A program made the position numbers and the translations under genes. A model generated the notes under the pieces. It was not told where the DNA came from and made no database searches. It saw only the letters and a list, made by a program, of their open reading frames with translations. Of a stretch of 64,000 nucleotides of DNA, positions 53,950-64,000 are shown in pieces (position 1 is the stretch's first letter; every line of letters begins with the position of its first letter). The DNA lies in assembly GCA_937943625.1 (NCBI GenBank), contig CALEAD010000003.1:1-64000 (forward strand). Reading direction: 5' to 3'. Source of the DNA: an uncultured Anaerolineae bacterium. GTDB taxonomy: Bacteria; Chloroflexota; Anaerolineae; Promineifilales; Promineifilaceae.

Positions 53950-55338
53950 TTACGGCCGTAAATCAGGCATCTGCGTCCAATCTTGCAGCACGTTAAAGGC
54001 GTCTGGCCCACCCTGAATCTGGCGGATTTGCGCCTGCTGCGGCGCGCGCACGCCGTTGGCGTAGTCTACGCGCACGACGCCGTTCAGCGCCTCAATCGGC
54101 CCCATCGTGGTCAGGGCGTTGTAGATGGCCTCGCCGTTCAGGTTGTCAAAGCCGACGGTGTCAATCGCCTTTTCGATGGCCTGCACGGCAATATCCACCC
54201 CGGTCACCAGCATCAGGTAGCCGACGTTGCGCGCGCCGGCGGGACGGCCGTTGGCCTCAAACAGGGAGGCGGCGTATTGAATGCCAGGATGATCGGCGTT
54301 GTTCCACCACAGGTAGGGGAAGGGTGAGATCAGGCCAACGGCTAACGACGGATCAGAGACAAACGCATAGGTTGCCAGGTCCATAGCCCAGTTGCAGCCG
54401 CCCAGCACAAACTCTTGCTTCAGCCCCAGCGCGCCCAGGCCGTTCATCAGCGCCGCCGGGCCAAAGGCCAGGGTGTTGGTCCAAATGACGTTGGCGCCAG
54501 CAGCCTGGGCGTTGAGAATGGCGGTGGTGGTATCGGCCGTTGGCGAAAGGTCATACGTCTCTTCGGCGACAATTTGCACGCCCAGGCTTTCAGCGTAGGC
54601 GCGGGTCTTCGGCGTAAGCGCCCCTTGACCAAAGGCGCCGGGCCAGCTCAGGTAAGCCAGCTTGATTTCGTCCCCGGCGCTGGCCGGCTTGATGGTCGCC
54701 CAGTTAGCGGTAATGTAGTCCAGGAAGAGACCGAACTGGTCAGGATAGATTGGGCCCAGGCCAAAGGTGTAGCCAGATTCTGGGCCATAAAAGCCAATGG
54801 CGCTGAGGCCCGCAGAAAGGTTGACGATTTTGTCTTCGGCAAAGCGGCTGGCCAGAGCTTCGACTTCACCGGAGCCGTAGGTGATCATGATCATGGCGTT
54901 GGGGTCGCTGCCCACAAAGCGATCATAGGCGGCTACGGCCTCGTCTATGCTACCGCCCGTGTCAGCAAAGCGCACTTCGATGGTGGCGCCACGAATGCCA
55001 CCGCGTTCGTTAATGGCTTTGACCGCGTCTTCCATGCCAAATACCAGCGGGCCGGTGATGGCGGCGTAGGGACCAGAAAGGTCGCCAAAGTGGTAGAAGG
55101 TGATTTTTTCCCCTTCCAGGTTTTGCGTGCGCTTATCAGGCTCTTGCACAGGAACGGCCGTTGGCTCGGCCGGCGCTTCTGGGGGCGTAGTGGGGGCTGC
55201 CGTAGGCGCTGCTGTGGTAGGTGGCGCAGCGGTTGGCGGCGCCGCTGTCGGTTCAGTTGGTGTGGCCGGGGAGCCGCAAGCAGCCAGCAACACCAGGCCC
55301 ATCAGGGCTACGAGCATAATTAGTGTCCACTTTCTCAT
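53950..55338 (-). CDS. ABC transporter substrate-binding lipoprotein (LivJ/K type)
   Basis: A 462-residue solute-binding lipoprotein. The signal peptide ends in lipobox LLAACG near residue 20, and a long Thr/Pro/Ala linker covers about 22-60. The two-lobed periplasmic-binding domain follows (GEKITFYHFGDLSGPYAAITGPLVFGMEDAVKAINERGGIRGATIEVRFADTGG), as in type-I branched-chain amino-acid or amide-binding proteins. The ligand is unknown; with the acyl-CoA synthetase inside the operon, an aromatic or fatty acid is as likely as an amino acid. The ATG at 55338 has GAAGGAAG upstream. Confidence 0.9.
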   Translation of the reverse strand: MRKWTLIMLVALMGLVLLAACGSPATPTEPTAAPPTAAPPTTAAPTAAPTTPPEAPAEPTAVPVQEPDKRTQNLEGEKITFYHFGDLSGPYAAITGPLVFGMEDAVKAINERGGIRGATIEVRFADTGGSIDEAVAAYDRFVGSDPNAMIMITYGSGEVEALASRFAEDKIVNLSAGLSAIGFYGPESGYTFGLGPIYPDQFGLFLDYITANWATIKPASAGDEIKLAYLSWPGAFGQGALTPKTRAYAESLGVQIVAEETYDLSPTADTTTAILNAQAAGANVIWTNTLAFGPAALMNGLGALGLKQEFVLGGCNWAMDLATYAFVSDPSLAVGLISPFPYLWWNNADHPGIQYAASLFEANGRPAGARNVGYLMLVTGVDIAVQAIEKAIDTVGFDNLNGEAIYNALTTMGPIEALNGVVRVDYANGVRAPQQAQIRQIQGGPDAFNVLQDWTQMPDLRP

Positions 55339-55489
55339 CTTTCTTCCTTCTCCTTTTGCGTGAAAACCGTGTTTACTGTTTCCGCTTGTCAACGTTTATC
55401 CTGCATCTTAACCAGCTATGTAACGAAACGACTCTCGGTTATCTGAAGCACACCTCCTTTTTTTACCGTTCACGCTCAATACGTCACGC

Positions 55490-56614
55490 TCAACGCGCAT
55501 ACGGCCGTAAACGCCACGCCGCCTTGATCAACATCCAGCGATGCGCCAGGCCACGCGGCTCGAAAATCAGAAAGAGCATCAGCGCCAGGCCAAAGAGCAG
55601 CGGCTTGAGTGCGGCCGTTGCCCCTCCGGCCAGCGTGGGCAGCAGCGCCGCTGCCGGCGGCGCCAGCACCGTGGCCAGCTCTTCCAACAGCACCACCAAC
55701 GTTGCGCCCAAGATGGGGCCAAGATTACTGCCCAGGCCCCCCACAACCAGCATCCCCATAAACATAATCGAATCCACCAGCCCAACCGTCTGCGAATTGA
55801 TGTGGCGCAAATTGTGCGCCAGCAGCGCCCCCGCCACACCTGCATACACGGCAGCAATAAAAAACGCCTTCAGCTTATAGGCAAACAGATTCACCCCCAG
55901 CAACTCTGCTGCCAGGTCATTGTCACGCACAGAAATCAGCGCCCGTCCCAGGCGGCTGCGCGAGATATTCAACGCCACAATCGTACTGACAATCAGCACC
56001 CCCAGGGTAATGTGAATAAACTGACTGGGCGTGGCAAAGCGATAAACACACGTCCCTAACTCGGCGTTAAACGTTGTGCCCAAAAAGCAGGTATTGGCAA
56101 TCACCGGCAGCGAAAACGTGGGCACAGGCACATTAATGCCCTGCGCGCCATTTAGCAAGCTGGGGTAAATGTGGCGCGTCAGCCAGGGAATAATGAACTG
56201 CGCGCTCAGCGTCGCCATCACCAGGTAAAACCCCTTGACGCGCAGCGAGGGCAGGCCAAAGATCAGCCCCACCAGCCCTGCGCCCAGCCCGGCGACCGGC
56301 AGCGCCAGAAAAAAGCTCCAGCCCGCTGCGCCCACCAATAGCGCGGAAATGTAGCCCCCCACCGTCATGAACGCCGCCTGCCCCAGCGAAATCTGCCCGG
56401 TATAACCGGTGAGAATGTTCAGCCCCTGCACGGCAATAATGGCAATGCCAATGCGATTAATCAGCGAAACGGTCGGTGCTGGCGCGTAATAGGGCAACGT
56501 AAACAGGGCCAACAACAACAGCAGCAACAACGCCCACTGCCAACGCTGACGCACCACCGCCAGATCATGTTCATAACTGGTATCAAAATCGCCAGACGGT
56601 CGTAAAACGGCCAT
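55490..56614 (-). CDS. Branched-chain-type ABC permease LivM
   Basis: A 374-residue integral membrane permease of the LivM type with about ten helices. INRIGIAIIAVQGLNILTGYTGQISLGQAAFMTVGGYISALL matches the conserved start of the permease domain, and SVRDNDLAAELLGVNLFAYKLKAFFIAAVYAGVAGALLAH is the cytoplasmic coupling segment. GAGGTGAG precedes the ATG at 56614; a GTG at 56620 is less likely. Confidence 0.92.
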   Translation of the reverse strand: MAVLRPSGDFDTSYEHDLAVVRQRWQWALLLLLLLALFTLPYYAPAPTVSLINRIGIAIIAVQGLNILTGYTGQISLGQAAFMTVGGYISALLVGAAGWSFFLALPVAGLGAGLVGLIFGLPSLRVKGFYLVMATLSAQFIIPWLTRHIYPSLLNGAQGINVPVPTFSLPVIANTCFLGTTFNAELGTCVYRFATPSQFIHITLGVLIVSTIVALNISRSRLGRALISVRDNDLAAELLGVNLFAYKLKAFFIAAVYAGVAGALLAHNLRHINSQTVGLVDSIMFMGMLVVGGLGSNLGPILGATLVVLLEELATVLAPPAAALLPTLAGGATAALKPLLFGLALMLFLIFEPRGLAHRWMLIKAAWRLRPYAR

Positions 56615-56695
56615 GCTCACCTCTATTAAGCAAAAGCAGGCGCAAGCGGTAGCGGAAGACCCCCTGCACGCGCGCTTTCACATTCGCTCTCGCTT

Positions 56696-57649
56696 CTACA
56701 CCCGTTCAATCCGCTTCTGTCCAAACAGCCCATCCGGGCGAATGACCAATACAATCAGCAAAAGAATATAGGGCACAATCTCCGCCGAGTTGCGGATAGC
56801 CTGCGCTGCCGCCGGCCCCATAAAAAAGCTATTGTTGGGCAGGCCAACCAGCCCCTGCGCCAGACCCACAATCAGCCCGCCCAGCACCGCTCCGGGGATA
56901 GACTCTAGCCCACCCAATAGCACGGCAGGAAAGGCCGCCAACACGACAATCGAGAGGCTGAGGTCTAGCCCACTGGCAGTGGCAATGAGGATGCCGCTGA
57001 TAGCGGCAATGACCCCGGCTATCGCCCAGGAGATGCCAAAGACGTGGTTGATGCGAATGCCGACGCTTTGCGCGGTTTCATGATTTTCGGCCGTGGCGCG
57101 CATGGCCAGACCAGTGCGCGTGTACTGGAAAAACAGCACCAGCACAATCACACAAATCATGGCAATGACAAACGACCAGACCAGATTTTGCCGCAGCACC
57201 ACCACAATAGGGTTGTCGTTGTAGGTTAACGGCAGGGTGATGCGGTACGGATTGGTCACAGAAAAGATAACGGGAAAGTTGCGCTGTGTGGTACCAAAGA
57301 CAAAGATGGTAAGCCCCTGGAGAAATTGCCCCAGTGCAAGGGTCATGAGGATAATGGAGAGTAGCGGCTGGCCAGTCATGGGGCGCAGGGTCAGGCGCTC
57401 GATGGCTAACCCCAGCAGCACAGAAACGGCCAGGGCGGCGATGATGGCTGCCCACAGCGGCAGCCCCATGCCTTCTGGCGAGGCAAACCACCAGGCTGCC
57501 ATCGCGCCGATGAGCAGCATTTGCCCATGCGCAAAGTTAAACACCTCGGATGACTTGAAAACCAGGACAATGCCCAGGGCCATGAGGGCGATTGGCCCGC
57601 CATTAAGCAGACCGGTAATTGCAAATTGAGGGAGTAATTGCCAATTCAT
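56696..57649 (-). CDS. Branched-chain-type ABC permease LivH
   Basis: A 317-residue integral membrane permease of the LivH type. NGGPIALMALGIVLVFKSSEVFNFAHGQMLLIGA at the N-terminus and the MRATAENHETAQSVGIRINHVFGISWAIAGVIAAISGIL coupling region are typical. It lies directly upstream of livM, separated by a short spacer with hairpin-type GCGCAAGCGG/CGCTCTCGC words. Confidence 0.92.
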   Translation of the reverse strand: MNWQLLPQFAITGLLNGGPIALMALGIVLVFKSSEVFNFAHGQMLLIGAMAAWWFASPEGMGLPLWAAIIAALAVSVLLGLAIERLTLRPMTGQPLLSIILMTLALGQFLQGLTIFVFGTTQRNFPVIFSVTNPYRITLPLTYNDNPIVVVLRQNLVWSFVIAMICVIVLVLFFQYTRTGLAMRATAENHETAQSVGIRINHVFGISWAIAGVIAAISGILIATASGLDLSLSIVVLAAFPAVLLGGLESIPGAVLGGLIVGLAQGLVGLPNNSFFMGPAAAQAIRNSAEIVPYILLLIVLVIRPDGLFGQKRIERV

Positions 57650-57726
57650 AATGATCTTGGATTGGGGATTTCGGATGTTGGATTAAAAAGCGCACGCTGC
57701 CGCAATCCAACCCCCAAAATCTGAAA

Positions 57727-59646
57727 TTAATCGAGGGAAGCAATTTTAATGGAGGTCGCAATGGTGCTTTCGCTGCCATCCTGGTAGCGCACGGTCGCGC
57801 GCACGTCTACTTTTTCGGCGCCGGCATACATGGCTTCGATGATGTCGCCATATTTATCATAGAGGACGCCGCGCCGCAGCTTGCGTGAGCGGGTCATTTC
57901 TGCTTCGTCGGCGTCGAATTCTTTGTGCATGAGAACGAAACGCCGCACACGGCCGTTTTCCGGCAAGCTCTCATTTACTTCTGCCACCGCCTGCCGGATG
58001 AGTTCGTACACCTGCGGCTTTTGCGAAAGGTCAATGAAGGTCGTGTAATTAATGCTGCGCCGCTCCGCCCAATTGCCCACATTGCCAAAGTCCATCACAA
58101 TCAGCGCCGCGACAAATTGGCGCGTTGGCCCGCCAACCGCCATCACGTCGCGAATGTACGGATTGAACTTTAGACGCCCTTCGATAAATTGCGGTGAGAA
58201 GCGTTCGCCATTGGCCAGGGTCAGCATGTCCTTCACGCGGTCCAGGTAAATCAGATGGCCGTCAGCGTCTATGTAGCCCGCGTCGCCAGTGCGGAACCAG
58301 CGCTGCCCGGCCTCGTCAATGTACAGCGCTTTGGCTGTGGCCTCTGGGTCTTTGTAGTAGCCCTGAAAGATGACCGGACCGGTGAGCAAAATTTCGCTGG
58401 TGTCGGGGTCAATTTTTACGGCCGTACCGGGGATCGGCTTACCCACGCTGGCAAATTTAATATCCCCATCACGGTGCATCGTTAGCCCCCCGGTCACCTC
58501 CGTCGAGCCATACACCTGCTTCAGGTTAATACCCAGGGCATGAAAAAAGCGAATCACGTCCGGGCTGAGCGCCGCGCCGGCGGTATAGGCGGTGCGAATG
58601 CGCGACATGCCGAGCTTATCACGCAGCGGGGCAAATATGGCCAGGTCGCCCACTTTGTAAGCCAGCTTCAGCCCCAGCCCCGGCTCCACACGGTGCAGCT
58701 TTTTGTCTGCGTAAGCGTAGCCAACGGGCAAGAAGCGTTCAAACAGCTTGCGGTTAAGCCAGGTAGATTCTTTGATATTGACCTGCACCATGCCGACCAG
58801 TGACTCCCAAAGGCGAGAGTTATAGAGGATGCCTTCTGGGGCAATTTCGCGCACATTTTCGCGCACTGTTTCCGGTTCTTCGGGGAAGTTGAGGATGATG
58901 CCGGTGTAGCAGTGGGGGGCAATGCCCAGGGCATGTTCACCAATCCAGCCCAGGGGCAGCAAGCTGACGTGATTGTCGCTGTCATAGCGCGGGTCTACCT
59001 GCTGGAAAAGCTGGCTGCTGGTCATCAGGTTGTTATGGCTGAGCATAGCTCCCTTGGGCAGACCGGTTGTGCCAGAGGTGTAGCAGAGAACGGCCGTGTC
59101 CTCTCCTTGCCCCAGCCACACTTCCGTCTCAAAGCGGTCTGGCTCCTTGCGCGCCAGCTCCCGCCCCAGGGCTTGTACTTCAGCAAAAGAGATCAGCCAG
59201 GGTTCCTCATAATTCCAGAGACCCTTCTCATCCCAATAAATGACGCGCTTTATTTTTGGCAATTGGTCACGCACCTCCAGCAGCTTATCGCACTGCTCCT
59301 GGTCTTTGGCCAGGGCAAAGGTGGAATCGCTGTGTGCGGCAATGTAAGCCAGCTCATCGGGAATGGCATCGGTGTAAATCCCCACTTGCGTGGCGCCTAC
59401 GGCCAGCAGCCCCAGGTAGCCCCACAGGTAAAAGCGATCATTATCGCCAATGGTGCAAATTTTGTCCTGCCGCTGCACGCCCAGCACCAGCAGCCCCAAG
59501 GCAAAGTCGCGCACATTTTCGTAGGATTCTTGCCAGCTAAATTCGCGCCAGATGCCCAGCTCTTTCTGGCGCAGGGCAACTTTGCCGGTACCATATTTTT
59601 GCACCTGCTGCAAAAAGTATTGAGGAAGGGTTTGTGGAGCGTTCAT
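57727..59646 (-). CDS. AMP-forming acyl-CoA synthetase (long-chain type)
   Basis: A 639-residue AMP-binding enzyme. The P-loop is TAVLCYTSGTTGLPKGAMLSH, followed by YGSTEVTGG and the hinge WFRTGDAGYIDADGHL; the C-terminal adenylation domain includes LMHKEFDADEAEMTRSRKLRR. It activates a carboxylic acid to its CoA thioester. It is inserted between livG and livH on the same strand, so it probably activates the substrate imported by this transporter. The catalytic Lys of the C-terminal domain seems to lie in the LRR end and cannot be assigned with confidence. The start is the ATG at 59646. Confidence 0.92.
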   Translation of the reverse strand: MNAPQTLPQYFLQQVQKYGTGKVALRQKELGIWREFSWQESYENVRDFALGLLVLGVQRQDKICTIGDNDRFYLWGYLGLLAVGATQVGIYTDAIPDELAYIAAHSDSTFALAKDQEQCDKLLEVRDQLPKIKRVIYWDEKGLWNYEEPWLISFAEVQALGRELARKEPDRFETEVWLGQGEDTAVLCYTSGTTGLPKGAMLSHNNLMTSSQLFQQVDPRYDSDNHVSLLPLGWIGEHALGIAPHCYTGIILNFPEEPETVRENVREIAPEGILYNSRLWESLVGMVQVNIKESTWLNRKLFERFLPVGYAYADKKLHRVEPGLGLKLAYKVGDLAIFAPLRDKLGMSRIRTAYTAGAALSPDVIRFFHALGINLKQVYGSTEVTGGLTMHRDGDIKFASVGKPIPGTAVKIDPDTSEILLTGPVIFQGYYKDPEATAKALYIDEAGQRWFRTGDAGYIDADGHLIYLDRVKDMLTLANGERFSPQFIEGRLKFNPYIRDVMAVGGPTRQFVAALIVMDFGNVGNWAERRSINYTTFIDLSQKPQVYELIRQAVAEVNESLPENGRVRRFVLMHKEFDADEAEMTRSRKLRRGVLYDKYGDIIEAMYAGAEKVDVRATVRYQDGSESTIATSIKIASLD

Positions 59647-59726
59647 AATTGTCAATTGTTAATGGTCACCAGTCAATTGGCAACGAAGAAATCGGTCACA
59701 ATTGACCATTAGCTATTGACCATCTT

Positions 59727-60500
59727 TCAGGCATCTCCCAGGTAGGCGTGAATGACTTTTTCGTCACGTTTTACTTCGTCGGGCGTGCCTTCGGCAATTT
59801 TCTGGCCGAAATCGAGCACCACCACGCGATCAGAAATATCCATCACCAGCCCCATATCGTGTTCAATCAGGACAATGGTTGTGCCTTGCCGTTCGTAAAT
59901 ATCCAGGATGAAGCGCGCCATATCCTCTTTTTCTTCCACGTTCATACCGGCCATTGGTTCATCCAACAGCAGCAATTCTGGCTCCAGCGCCAGGGCGCGG
60001 CCTAGCTCGACACGCTTGCGCAGGCCATAGGGGAGCGCACCCACAATGGTTTTGCGAATATGGGCAATTTCGAGGAAGTCTATGATTTCTTCCACGCGGC
60101 GACGGTGGGCCACTTCTTCACGTCGGGCGTATCCCCAGTAAAGGATGCTTTGCAGGCTGTTTTGGCGCATGTGGATGTGGCGCGCCGCCATTAAGTTATC
60201 CAGGGTAGAGAGGCCGGTGTAGAGGGCAATGTTCTGAAAAGTACGGGCAAGGCCTAGGGCGGCAATTTTGTGTGTGGGGGTTTTGGTCAGATCATGGCCT
60301 TTGAAGCGGATACGGCCGTGTTGCGGCCGATAGAAGCCGCTGATACAGTTGAGCATCGAGGTTTTGCCTGCGCCATTTGGGCCAATGATGGCCAAAATTT
60401 CCCCCCGACGCACGCCAAAGGACACTTCGCACAGCGCCGCATTGCCGCCAAAGTACAGGGTTACGTCCTCAACTGTCAAAAAATTCTCGCTTGCCGTCAT
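59727..60500 (-). CDS. Branched-chain-type ABC transporter ATPase LivG
   Basis: A 257-residue ATPase of the LivG type. Walker A is GPNGAGKTS near residue 40, and GLARTFQNIALYTGLSTLDNLMAARH is the characteristic LivG helical segment. The signature is LPYGLRKRVELGRALALEP (a degenerate LSGGQ, common in LivG) and Walker B is LLLLDEPMAGMNVEE. It is the first gene of the block, with a GAGGTGG site before the ATG. Confidence 0.94.
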   Translation of the reverse strand: MTASENFLTVEDVTLYFGGNAALCEVSFGVRRGEILAIIGPNGAGKTSMLNCISGFYRPQHGRIRFKGHDLTKTPTHKIAALGLARTFQNIALYTGLSTLDNLMAARHIHMRQNSLQSILYWGYARREEVAHRRRVEEIIDFLEIAHIRKTIVGALPYGLRKRVELGRALALEPELLLLDEPMAGMNVEEKEDMARFILDIYERQGTTIVLIEHDMGLVMDISDRVVVLDFGQKIAEGTPDEVKRDEKVIHAYLGDA

Positions 60501-60849: not shown

Positions 60850-63846
60850 ATGTCTGACTCTTTGCGCCTGGTAAGACGGCGCGCCCAGCGTGCCAGGCAG
60901 CGCCGCCGCGCTCCTTTGCTGCTGCGTGCAGTAGCGCTGGCGTTGTTACTGCTTCTGGCGCCGCTGGGGGCGCTGCTGCTGTTGGGGGGCATAGGGGTGC
61001 TAACGGCCGTTGCCACTTTCAGCCAATCTTTACCTGATGTCAGCCGCCTGGAAGCCCTGCCCCAGGAAATGTTGCAATCCTACGAAGGCAGCAAGCTCTA
61101 TGCCTGGGGGGAACGCCAGCCGGATGGCAACCGCGAGGCGGTGTTGATCTATCAGGTGCAAGACCCGCTAGGAGCCGAGCGAACGTGGCTGAGTCTCGCG
61201 CAAACGCCGCCAATGCTGGCCGATGCGGTGCTAACGGCCGTTACCTTCAACGCTCCCTCGCCTTCCCCCTTGCTGCTAGCTGGCGACCGGGCCAGCGCCG
61301 TGCTGGCGCAACAGCTCGCCAGCACCTTCCTGCTGCCCGACGCCAAGGCAGACGAACCGCCAACTAGCTTGCGCACCTACCGTCAGCAGTTGGAAAAGCT
61401 GGTGGTAACGCGCCAGGTGACGCAGCGCTACAACCAGGCACAACTGCTAGAATGGCATCTGAACACCGCCTATTACGGCAACCTGGCATACGGCATTCAG
61501 GCCGCGGCGCACGTTTACCTGAACAAGCACATTAACGAGCTCACCCTGGCGGAGGCGGCCCTACTGGCGCCCATCGCTTACGCCCCGCACCTGAATCCCA
61601 TTGACGCCCCTGAGGCAGCCAGAACGCGGCAGGTGCAGCTCCTGGAGGCGCTGCTGGCCAACGGCCGTATTACCCGCGATCAGTTTGCCACCGCCCAATT
61701 TGCCCCTTTGCCCCCTCCCCCTGGCACAGAGGTGCGCTTTGATGTGATTGCCCCTCACTTTGCCCTGTACGTGCGCCGACAGCTAGAAGCGCTGGTGGGT
61801 GCGCGGGCGCTGTTGCGCGGTGGGCTGCGCGTCTACACCACGCTCGACCTGAGCCTGCAGCGCCAGGCCGAGTGCGTGGCGCGCGCGCAGGTAGCGCGAC
61901 TCTCTGGGCAGATGGGTGAATTGCTGCCGCCAGATGAACGCGCGGCCTGTGGCGCGCTCACCTTTTTGCCCCCCTCGCCTGGCGCTACCGTAAGCGCGAA
62001 TCGCAACGTAAGCAATGCGGCCGTTGTCATGCTGGACCCCACAACCGGTGAAATCCGCGCCCTGGTAGGCAGCCTCAACTACTGGGACGCGCGCAGCGGC
62101 GGCGCGCTAAATATGGCAACGGATGGGCTGCGTCAGCCTGGCTCGGCGCTGCAACCCTTCGTCTATCTGACAGCGCTCAGCCAGGGGTATACGGCCGCCA
62201 CTATGGTGCTGGACGTGGAGACTGACTTTGGCGCCCTGTATGAGGGACGCACCTACGTGCCGCAAAACGAAGACGGCCGTTTTCATGGTCCCATGCGGCT
62301 GCGGCAAGCGTTGGGCAACAGCTATAACGTACCGGCGGTGCAGGTGCTCAGCTGGGTGGGCGTGCCGCGCCTGCTGCGCACGGCGCAAAACCTCGGCCTG
62401 ACCACGCTGAATGAAGGTGCCGAATCATACGCCCTTTCCTTACCGCTTGGCGGCGGGCAAGTACAGCTGCTAGAGATGGCCTACGCCTATGGCGTACTGG
62501 CCCACATGGGGGAGATGGTGGGGCAGGCGCGCCAGACGGCCTTACAGCCCGGTGAGCGCCCGCTTGATCCCGTTGCCATTGTGCGCGTTGAGGATAGCGC
62601 CGGTCAACTGCTGGTTGCCTATGACCGGCCACAGCGCCGCGAAATTTTGCCGCCCCAACTTGCCTTTTTGATGAATGACATGTTGAGCGACCGCAGCGCG
62701 CGCTGCGCCGCTTTTGGCTGCCCGAATTGGCTGGAACTGCCCAATAATCGTCCGGCAGCCGTGCAGACGGGCAGCACCAACGATTTCCGCGACGCCTGGG
62801 CAATTGGCTACACGCCGCAACTGGTAACGGCCGTCTGGGTGGGCAACACAGATAACAGCCCAATGGTGGGCGTGAGCGGCTACGATGGTGCCGCACCCAT
62901 CTGGCAGGCGCTGATGGCATGGGCGCTACAGACAGAACCGGTGCAGCTCTGGTCGCCGCCGCCTGGGCTGGTGGAACGGCCGGTTTGCGACATTTCTGGC
63001 CTACGCCCCACGCCCATCTGCCCCACGGTGTTGGAATGGTTTGTTGCCGGCACAGAACCCCTGCTTTTTGACACAATCTTCCAGGAGTTTGCCGTGAACC
63101 ACGAAAACGGCCGTCTGGCCACTTTTTCTACCCCGCCGGAGCTGATTGAGCGGCGCATTTACCGCGTCTACCCGGAAGCGGCCGCCGCCTGGGCGCGCGC
63201 CAACGGCGTGGAGCAGCCCCCCACCGAGTACGACACGCTCCGCGTAACGGCCGTTGCCGAGGAAGTTGCCATTCGCTCCCCACAGCCATTTGCTCACCTG
63301 CGCGGGCAGGTCGCCATCACCGGCACGGTGGCGCTGGCAGACCTGGCTTACTATCGCCTGGCCTACTTTGCCGGGCTGACACCGGTAAACCTGCGCACCA
63401 TTGAGGCAGATGTGCCGCAGCGCATCATCAACGGCACCTTGGGCGTGTGGGATGTGGAAAATTTACAGGGGCTGTACACGCTGCTGCTAACGGCCGTGCG
63501 CCAGGATAGCAGCTTTGTGGAGCTAAGCCTGCCCGTCACCGTAGATAATACACCCCCGACGGTTGAGCTGCTGGCGCCGCTGCCTGGCCAGCAATTTTTT
63601 ACCGACGCCCGCTGGGTAGAGGTGCAGGCACAGGCAAGCGACAATTTGACTATCGCGCGCGTGGAATTTTATCTGGATGACGCGGAACGGCCGTTTGCCA
63701 GCAGTGATACCCCCCCCTACAGCCGCCGCCTGCCCGCGCGCACCCCTGGTTGCCACACCGTGCGCGCCGTGGCGGTTGATCTGGCAGGAAATGAGCGCAG
63801 CACAACGGCCGTGCCGTTTTGCGTGGTTGTGCAAAACAGGAATTAG
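60850..63846 (+). CDS. PBP1A-like protein lacking catalytic residues (pseudoenzyme)
   Basis: A 998-residue class-A penicillin-binding protein homologue: a basic N-terminus, one membrane anchor (about 23-55), a glycosyltransferase-51-like domain (about 60-245) and a transpeptidase-like domain (about 290-690). C-terminal Ig/FN3-like domains follow to the end. The GT51 fold is clear from LLEWHLNTAYYGNLAYGIQAAA and LTLAEAALLAPI, but the ED-x-x-F catalytic motif near residue 131 reads AVTFNAPSP, and GGSTITQQ reads RASAVLAQQ. In the transpeptidase domain S-x-x-K is Ser432-Ala-Leu-Gln435, S-x-N is intact (491-493) and K-T-G is Gln639-Thr-Gly. It has lost at least three catalytic residues and is probably a structural or regulatory relative. 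Confidence 0.85.
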   Translation: MSDSLRLVRRRAQRARQRRRAPLLLRAVALALLLLLAPLGALLLLGGIGVLTAVATFSQSLPDVSRLEALPQEMLQSYEGSKLYAWGERQPDGNREAVLIYQVQDPLGAERTWLSLAQTPPMLADAVLTAVTFNAPSPSPLLLAGDRASAVLAQQLASTFLLPDAKADEPPTSLRTYRQQLEKLVVTRQVTQRYNQAQLLEWHLNTAYYGNLAYGIQAAAHVYLNKHINELTLAEAALLAPIAYAPHLNPIDAPEAARTRQVQLLEALLANGRITRDQFATAQFAPLPPPPGTEVRFDVIAPHFALYVRRQLEALVGARALLRGGLRVYTTLDLSLQRQAECVARAQVARLSGQMGELLPPDERAACGALTFLPPSPGATVSANRNVSNAAVVMLDPTTGEIRALVGSLNYWDARSGGALNMATDGLRQPGSALQPFVYLTALSQGYTAATMVLDVETDFGALYEGRTYVPQNEDGRFHGPMRLRQALGNSYNVPAVQVLSWVGVPRLLRTAQNLGLTTLNEGAESYALSLPLGGGQVQLLEMAYAYGVLAHMGEMVGQARQTALQPGERPLDPVAIVRVEDSAGQLLVAYDRPQRREILPPQLAFLMNDMLSDRSARCAAFGCPNWLELPNNRPAAVQTGSTNDFRDAWAIGYTPQLVTAVWVGNTDNSPMVGVSGYDGAAPIWQALMAWALQTEPVQLWSPPPGLVERPVCDISGLRPTPICPTVLEWFVAGTEPLLFDTIFQEFAVNHENGRLATFSTPPELIERRIYRVYPEAAAAWARANGVEQPPTEYDTLRVTAVAEEVAIRSPQPFAHLRGQVAITGTVALADLAYYRLAYFAGLTPVNLRTIEADVPQRIINGTLGVWDVENLQGLYTLLLTAVRQDSSFVELSLPVTVDNTPPTVELLAPLPGQQFFTDARWVEVQAQASDNLTIARVEFYLDDAERPFASSDTPPYSRRLPARTPGCHTVRAVAVDLAGNERSTTAVPFCVVVQNRN

Positions 63847-63879
63847 AGAGTGAAAGTAACTGCGAAGGCTCCTGCGAAA

Positions 63880-64000
63880 ATGCGATATCTGGCGCTGGGT
63901 GATTCCTATACCATTGGTGAAGGCGTGCCGGAAGCGGAACGCTGGCCAGTGCAGCTTGTCGCGCGGCTGCGCGCGGCCGGCCTGCCCGTGAGCACGCCAC
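63880..64000 (+). CDS. SGNH/GDSL hydrolase, start only
   Basis: An open frame from an ATG at 63880 (GTG at 63850 possible) to the end of the window. The first residues, MRYLALGDSYTIGEGV, contain the GDSY block I motif of SGNH hydrolases, so the Ser nucleophile is present. Later blocks lie outside the window. It follows the PBP-like gene at 33 bases and may be cotranscribed. Confidence 0.75.
   Translation, partial: MRYLALGDSYTIGEGVPEAERWPVQLVARLRAAGLPVSTP

Follow-up and report, generated by a model that had tools for sequence, protein, structure and literature searches.

A class A penicillin-binding protein orthologue with both catalytic sites degraded, probably retained as a non-catalytic protein, in an Anaerolineae bacterium

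Relation to described penicillin-binding proteins

Class A penicillin-binding proteins (PBPs) of the PBP1A type (TIGR02074; structures 4oon, 5u2g and 3udf) share with the protein described here the order of membrane anchor, GT51 and transpeptidase domains, the fold, and homology over both domains. The protein is encoded in the window, by which we mean the whole 64,000-nucleotide stretch of DNA that was analyzed. Compared with the PBP1A type, it lacks the GT51 catalytic Glu and both transpeptidase lysines, has two extra C-terminal beta domains, and scores below the family cut-off (346 bits against 508 for the NCBIfam model PBP_1a_fam, TIGR02074). Another class A PBP, PBP1C (PbpC), likewise carries a beta module at its C-terminus. 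Its family model (TIGR02073) is the second best for the window protein and spans the transpeptidase and part of the region that follows it (post-TP region), also at a score below the curated cut-off (326 bits against 494). However, the C-terminal domain of the window protein is a Big_7 domain, with no match to BiPBP_C in Pfam, and PBP1C keeps its catalytic motifs, unlike the window protein. A possible parallel is PBP2B of Bacillus subtilis, a PBP that contributes structurally to the assembly of a complex whether or not it is catalytically active (PMC5656894). PBP2B differs in that it is a class B protein and natively intact, its dead form having been made by mutation (PMC5656894). Bacterial pseudokinases (PMC12599244) are alike in their kept fold, their lost catalysis and the recurrence of loss at the family level. 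A literature search confined largely to open-access papers turned up no account of a naturally occurring class A PBP that lacks both sites.

The gene lies at positions 60850..63846 of the forward strand (+), as do all its features given below, and is one uninterrupted reading frame of 998 codons (998 aa). An Arg-rich N-terminal segment precedes the membrane anchor (approximately residues 24-58; 60919..61023), which is seen in the sequence as a hydrophobic run and falls within a long helix at residues 3-59 of the structure model. The remnant GT51 domain (approximately residues 121-267; 61210..61650) matches Pfam Transgly over profile positions 69-176 only, the match starting at position 69 of 178. 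The transpeptidase domain (residues 391-700; 62020..62949) has retained its fold according to Pfam, the model and Foldseek, and its Pfam Transpeptidase match covers profile positions 2-181 of 299. It is followed by the post-TP region (residues 701-800; 62950..63249), a first all-beta (Ig-like) domain delimited from predicted strands (residues 805-898; 63262..63543) and a Big_7 Ig-like domain (residues 903-973; 63556..63768; Pfam E 3.5e-11). The extra C-terminal Ig-like domains noticed in a first-pass annotation of this DNA are recovered as two all-beta domains in the model, the last of them also by Pfam as Big_7. The Big_7 domain is absent from the degraded orthologues of G029, G013 and the species of genus g4.

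The AlphaFold model has a mean pLDDT of 86, with values mostly of 80-97 over the transpeptidase domain and low values at residues 164-170 in the GT domain. Structures of PBP1A and PBP1B are its top matches in Foldseek, and the sequence homologues with a solved structure in the PDB are PBP1A proteins. Confidence over the GT region is alike in the model of an intact orthologue and in that of the window protein, so the models do not discriminate intact from degraded proteins.

Catalytic motifs and other wall-synthesis genes

To read the motifs, the protein was aligned with the genome's three intact class A PBPs, with many orthologues and with PBP1A proteins of solved structure. In the GT domain, the site of motif 1 (E-D-x-x-F; 61234..61257) is lost and reads T-A-V-T-F-N-A-P; the motif-1 Glu is deleted and about 14 residues are missing around motifs 1-2. 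Motif 2 (S-x-T-Q-Q) now reads ASAVLAQQ, and the position of the motif-3 catalytic Glu is occupied by Lys183 (61396..61398). In the transpeptidase domain, Gln435 (62152..62154) replaces the lysine of S-x-x-K (S432-A-L-Q435) and Gln639 (62764..62766) that of K-T-G (Q639-T-G), both positions being Lys in 43/43 intact orthologues. Ser432 at the nucleophile position (62143..62145) and S491-Y-N493, the S-x-N motif (62320..62328), are retained. The alignment thus confirms what the first-pass annotation had read from the letters, namely that the GT51 Glu motif and both lysines are replaced while the nucleophile Ser and S-x-N are kept. From what is known of GT51 and acyl-serine transpeptidase chemistry, both activities should be absent without these residues.

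By descent and fold the protein belongs with the class A PBPs (63% identity to an intact orthologue of the same genus; matches in Foldseek and the PDB), but both GT51 Glu positions are lost and only S-x-N is complete in the transpeptidase domain. What remains has the sequence features expected of a pseudoenzyme, those of a homologous protein of intact length from which the catalytic residues are gone. Stops, frameshifts and truncation, the marks of a pseudogene, were not found: the 998-codon frame is open and the GT region is in frame. When all frames were compared by tblastn with the intact same-genus protein, the GT region was collinear in a single frame. Because this match runs in frame and without a break across the region, the GT changes are not due to a frameshift. 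Together with the alignment to PDB sequences, the same search ruled out shifted motifs.

The genome that contains the window (G000; 4.09 Mb, 95% complete, a draft of 89 contigs) has three further GT51 genes, which score 190-208 bits compared with 77 for the window gene. In the alignment, the motifs of these three class A PBPs are intact in both domains; the first-pass annotation had suggested looking for an intact PBP1A elsewhere in the genome. The genome also has further transpeptidase genes and three SEDS genes. Given these intact class A PBPs, transpeptidases and SEDS proteins, wall synthesis need not rest on catalysis by the window protein. A GT51 search of 34 genomes extends the pattern: the degraded copy stands apart at 51-123 bits, and each genome with such a copy has 2-5 other, intact-scoring GT51 genes.

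Intact and degraded orthologues

Across the host's class the orthologue is common and occurs as a single copy. Among 61 near-complete orthologues, 43 are intact and 18 degraded, with 2 of the 43 intact calls resting on the transpeptidase domain alone (genes cut by contig ends). Degraded copies account for 17/40 orthologues in the host's family and 1/21 outside it. The first-pass annotation had envisaged that the same substitutions would be conserved in relatives; this did not hold, as the nearest relatives, including the same-genus orthologue, are intact and the substitutions differ among the degraded orthologues. Another 80 loci from named GTDB genomes (MAGs of Chloroflexota under labels such as Anaerolineae and Ardenticatenaceae) comprise 70 intact and 6 clearly degraded copies and 4 cut by contig ends, but they are not an independent sample because many are the same contigs as other loci analyzed. 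A recent paralogue was considered and rejected, since two copies of this orthologue type were seen in no genome; likewise, an intact and a degraded copy occurred together in none of the genomes searched. In G017 and G031 (both of genus g17) and in G023, genomes of the host's family that are 92-96% complete, nothing matches the C-terminal part of this protein in full. The orthologue may have been lost outright in these three genomes, and its apparent absence there suggests that it is dispensable at times.

On how often catalysis was lost, the gene tree is less clear than the species tree. In a tree of RpoB and IF2, G000 and the intact G001 are sisters (100/100), as are G006 and the intact G026 (96/92), and the data reject a tree that unites all degraded genomes in a single clade (p 3e-105). 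The PBP gene tree was built from the transpeptidase domain to the first Ig domain with the motif columns removed. It also pairs G000 with G001 (67/99), a pair that recurs in the LG+G4 maximum-likelihood (ML) tree. In the ML tree the degraded g6 copies pair with the intact G026, and the other degraded copies fall into a single group. For the PBP gene, a tree that unites every degraded copy in one clade passes the AU test (p 0.25 and 0.28), and a tree constrained to the full species topology is rejected (p 4e-22). A quick gene tree that united nearly all degraded copies proved misleading, as better trees came out of the clade tests. If catalysis was never regained, the RpoB and IF2 tree implies about 7 losses in the host's family plus one in G057 elsewhere. 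The trees do not settle the number; we place it between 2 and about 8 independent losses, of which that of the window copy is the best supported.

Five replacements, N207A (61468-61470), S432T (62143-62145), F434L (62149-62151), R476G (62275-62277) and S491G (62320-62322; positions are those of the corresponding window codons), are common to several degraded lineages and rare in intact orthologues. This sharing extends to a genome from another family. Such sharing fits convergence and common origin alike.

Intact and degraded copies occupy the same locus, as judged from shared neighbors whose names were assigned by reading the sequences. The intact G059 and the degraded G019, G021 and G029 have downstream neighbors in common, drawn from a PAS histidine kinase, PdxT/PdxS and others, and an upstream aminotransferase is common to the intact G001, G025 and G059 and the degraded G009, G014, G019 and G021. 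In six degraded genomes (G000, G009, G014, G019, G021 and G029) the pseudo-PBP gene is preceded, immediately or almost so, by a divergent liv operon, which encodes a branched-chain amino acid ABC transporter and an AMP-binding ligase (window positions 53950-60500, minus strand; loci L116-L119 and L062). Next to the intact orthologues of this clade no such operon was observed, though several of those contigs end early. The association of the liv operon with the degraded copy may come from shared ancestry. The liv operon, aminotransferase, PdxT/PdxS and histidine kinase gave no clue to function.

Remaining constraint and competing explanations

To locate constraint, we used the residues that are nearly invariant in intact orthologues as a reference. 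The 18 degraded proteins keep 31% of these residues at GT catalytic and 25% at transpeptidase catalytic positions, 52% and 61% at the other positions of the two domains, 72% in the linker, 85% in the Ig domain and 89% in the post-TP region, the best-conserved part of the degraded copies. Residue by residue, the S-x-x-K Lys is kept in 1/18, S-x-N in 1/18, the K-T-G Lys in 2/18, the nucleophile Ser in 3/18 and the two GT Glu in 4/18 and 3/18. The window copy is the only degraded orthologue that keeps both Ser432 and S-x-N. It retains 48% of GT invariants, 85% of the other transpeptidase invariants and 91% of those in the post-TP region plus Ig domain; its identity to the intact sister is 72-76% in the transpeptidase domain, 63% in the linker and 68% in the Ig domain. 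Constraint has shifted from the catalytic residues to the post-TP region and the Ig domain.

Codon changes give a second view of this constraint. Within genus g6, the degraded pair G073-G075 (77-82% complete draft genomes) has a whole-gene dN/dS of 0.07 (NG86) or 0.10 (YN00) over 768 codons, the strongest sign of purifying selection on a degraded protein. Degraded pairs of genus g4 are under weaker constraint (dN/dS about 0.37). In both genera, degraded copies persist with long frames through several species. For the window copy there is no close relative with the same degraded state, so that its constraint was judged from one divergent comparison, with the intact sister (outgroups G002 and G025), in which counts are small and synonymous sites partly saturated. 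The GT codons show 24 nonsynonymous and 5 synonymous changes (24 N:5 S) on the window lineage compared with 0:7 on the sister lineage (p 9e-5); evolution was near-neutral over codons 126-267, with 39/39/28 changes at the three codon positions. The transpeptidase domain is relaxed (17 N:24 S compared with 2:21, p 0.009), the post-TP region plus Ig domain mildly so (8 N:5 S compared with 2:10, p 0.04), and the Ig domain taken separately shows no difference (4 N:2 S compared with 2:3). No stop arose on the window lineage, where 10.6 are expected if substitutions were random (P ~2.5e-5), and the frame is open despite seven indels. For the window copy, the missing stops and the conserved post-TP and Ig parts are indirect signs that selection has kept it.

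We consider it probable that the window gene encodes a pseudo-class A PBP that has lost both activities and is retained as a full-length, membrane-anchored, wall-side protein without catalysis. Under this reading, the counterpart of an active bifunctional PBP, present in one copy per genome, would have lost glycan polymerization and cross-linking while other active synthases in the genome could cover wall synthesis, and selection would now act on a non-catalytic job done by the folded body together with the post-TP/Ig module. As a structural subunit, the protein would most likely hold or position the remaining active synthases, or use its C-terminal module to bind the wall; the first-pass annotation had suggested a wall-binding scaffold or a regulator of active PBPs.

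The main rival for the window copy is early decay, in which the three intact class A PBPs made the gene redundant and so freed it from selection, and the frame is open only because little time has passed. The near-neutral GT codons, the relaxed transpeptidase domain, the mild relaxation further downstream and the apparent loss of the gene in g17 speak for it, but it sits poorly with the lack of stops in a frame that survived seven indels, with the conservation of transpeptidase, linker and Ig domains relative to the intact sister, and with the lasting degraded copies of g4 and g6, constrained as they are in g6. We regard it as rather unlikely. A single old degraded allele that horizontal exchange spread, or differential retention sorted, among these genera is likewise unlikely. 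It would account for the gene tree allowing one degraded clade, for the rare S432T, R476G, S491G and N207A shared among degraded lineages and for the liv operon adjoining the locus in six degraded genomes. Against it, the window copy pairs with the intact G001 and alone keeps Ser432 together with S-x-N, the free ML tree joins the degraded g6 copies to the intact G026, the locus shares its neighbors with intact orthologues (c3 upstream, PdxT/PdxS downstream), the species tree rejects a single clade, and the two forms were never seen in one genome.

Residual chemistry, by which Ser432 and S-x-N would allow slow acylation or an esterase-like activity and make the protein a beta-lactam sensor or trap, is improbable: although Ser432, S491 and N493 are retained in a transpeptidase fold modelled with confidence, Gln stands in place of each lysine that would assist acylation, and few of the degraded copies have the nucleophile Ser. 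An artefact of assembly or sequencing might be suspected in a draft of so many contigs. The first-pass annotation held that damage to both domains makes simple sequencing error unlikely. Against an artefact stand also the large number of distinct substitutions, all in frame in a reading frame without interruption or frameshift, and comparable loss in 17 other genomes, including named records from different projects; we give an artefact almost no credence.

Beyond the window, we propose only tentatively that this particular class A PBP orthologue became a non-catalytic structural protein several times independently in one Chloroflexota family. Were this so, the post-TP/Ig module of the PBP would have served an important non-enzymatic purpose all along, one that can be separated from wall synthesis, and the two active sites would disappear together when the other synthases are enough. 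Non-catalytic roles of class A PBPs are usually probed by engineered point mutants; on the best-supported trees, nature seems to have run the dead-enzyme experiment several times in one orthologue. The comparison of degraded copies with their intact sisters points to the post-TP region plus the first Ig domain as the part that matters without catalysis. It also cautions that Pfam Transgly and Transpeptidase matches in Chloroflexota genomes do not always denote a wall synthase or a penicillin target.

Two minor observations concern other genes of the genome. A gene for a GDSL/SGNH hydrolase of 213 aa, not found beside other orthologues, starts 3 bp past the stop of the pseudo-PBP gene on the same strand (63850..64000, +, continuing at L055:6851-7492), and the two could be co-transcribed. 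Elsewhere, an 885-aa frame (G000:C10:71815-74133) carries a SEDS (FTSW_RODA_SPOVE) and a transpeptidase domain and is an apparent SEDS-PBP fusion.
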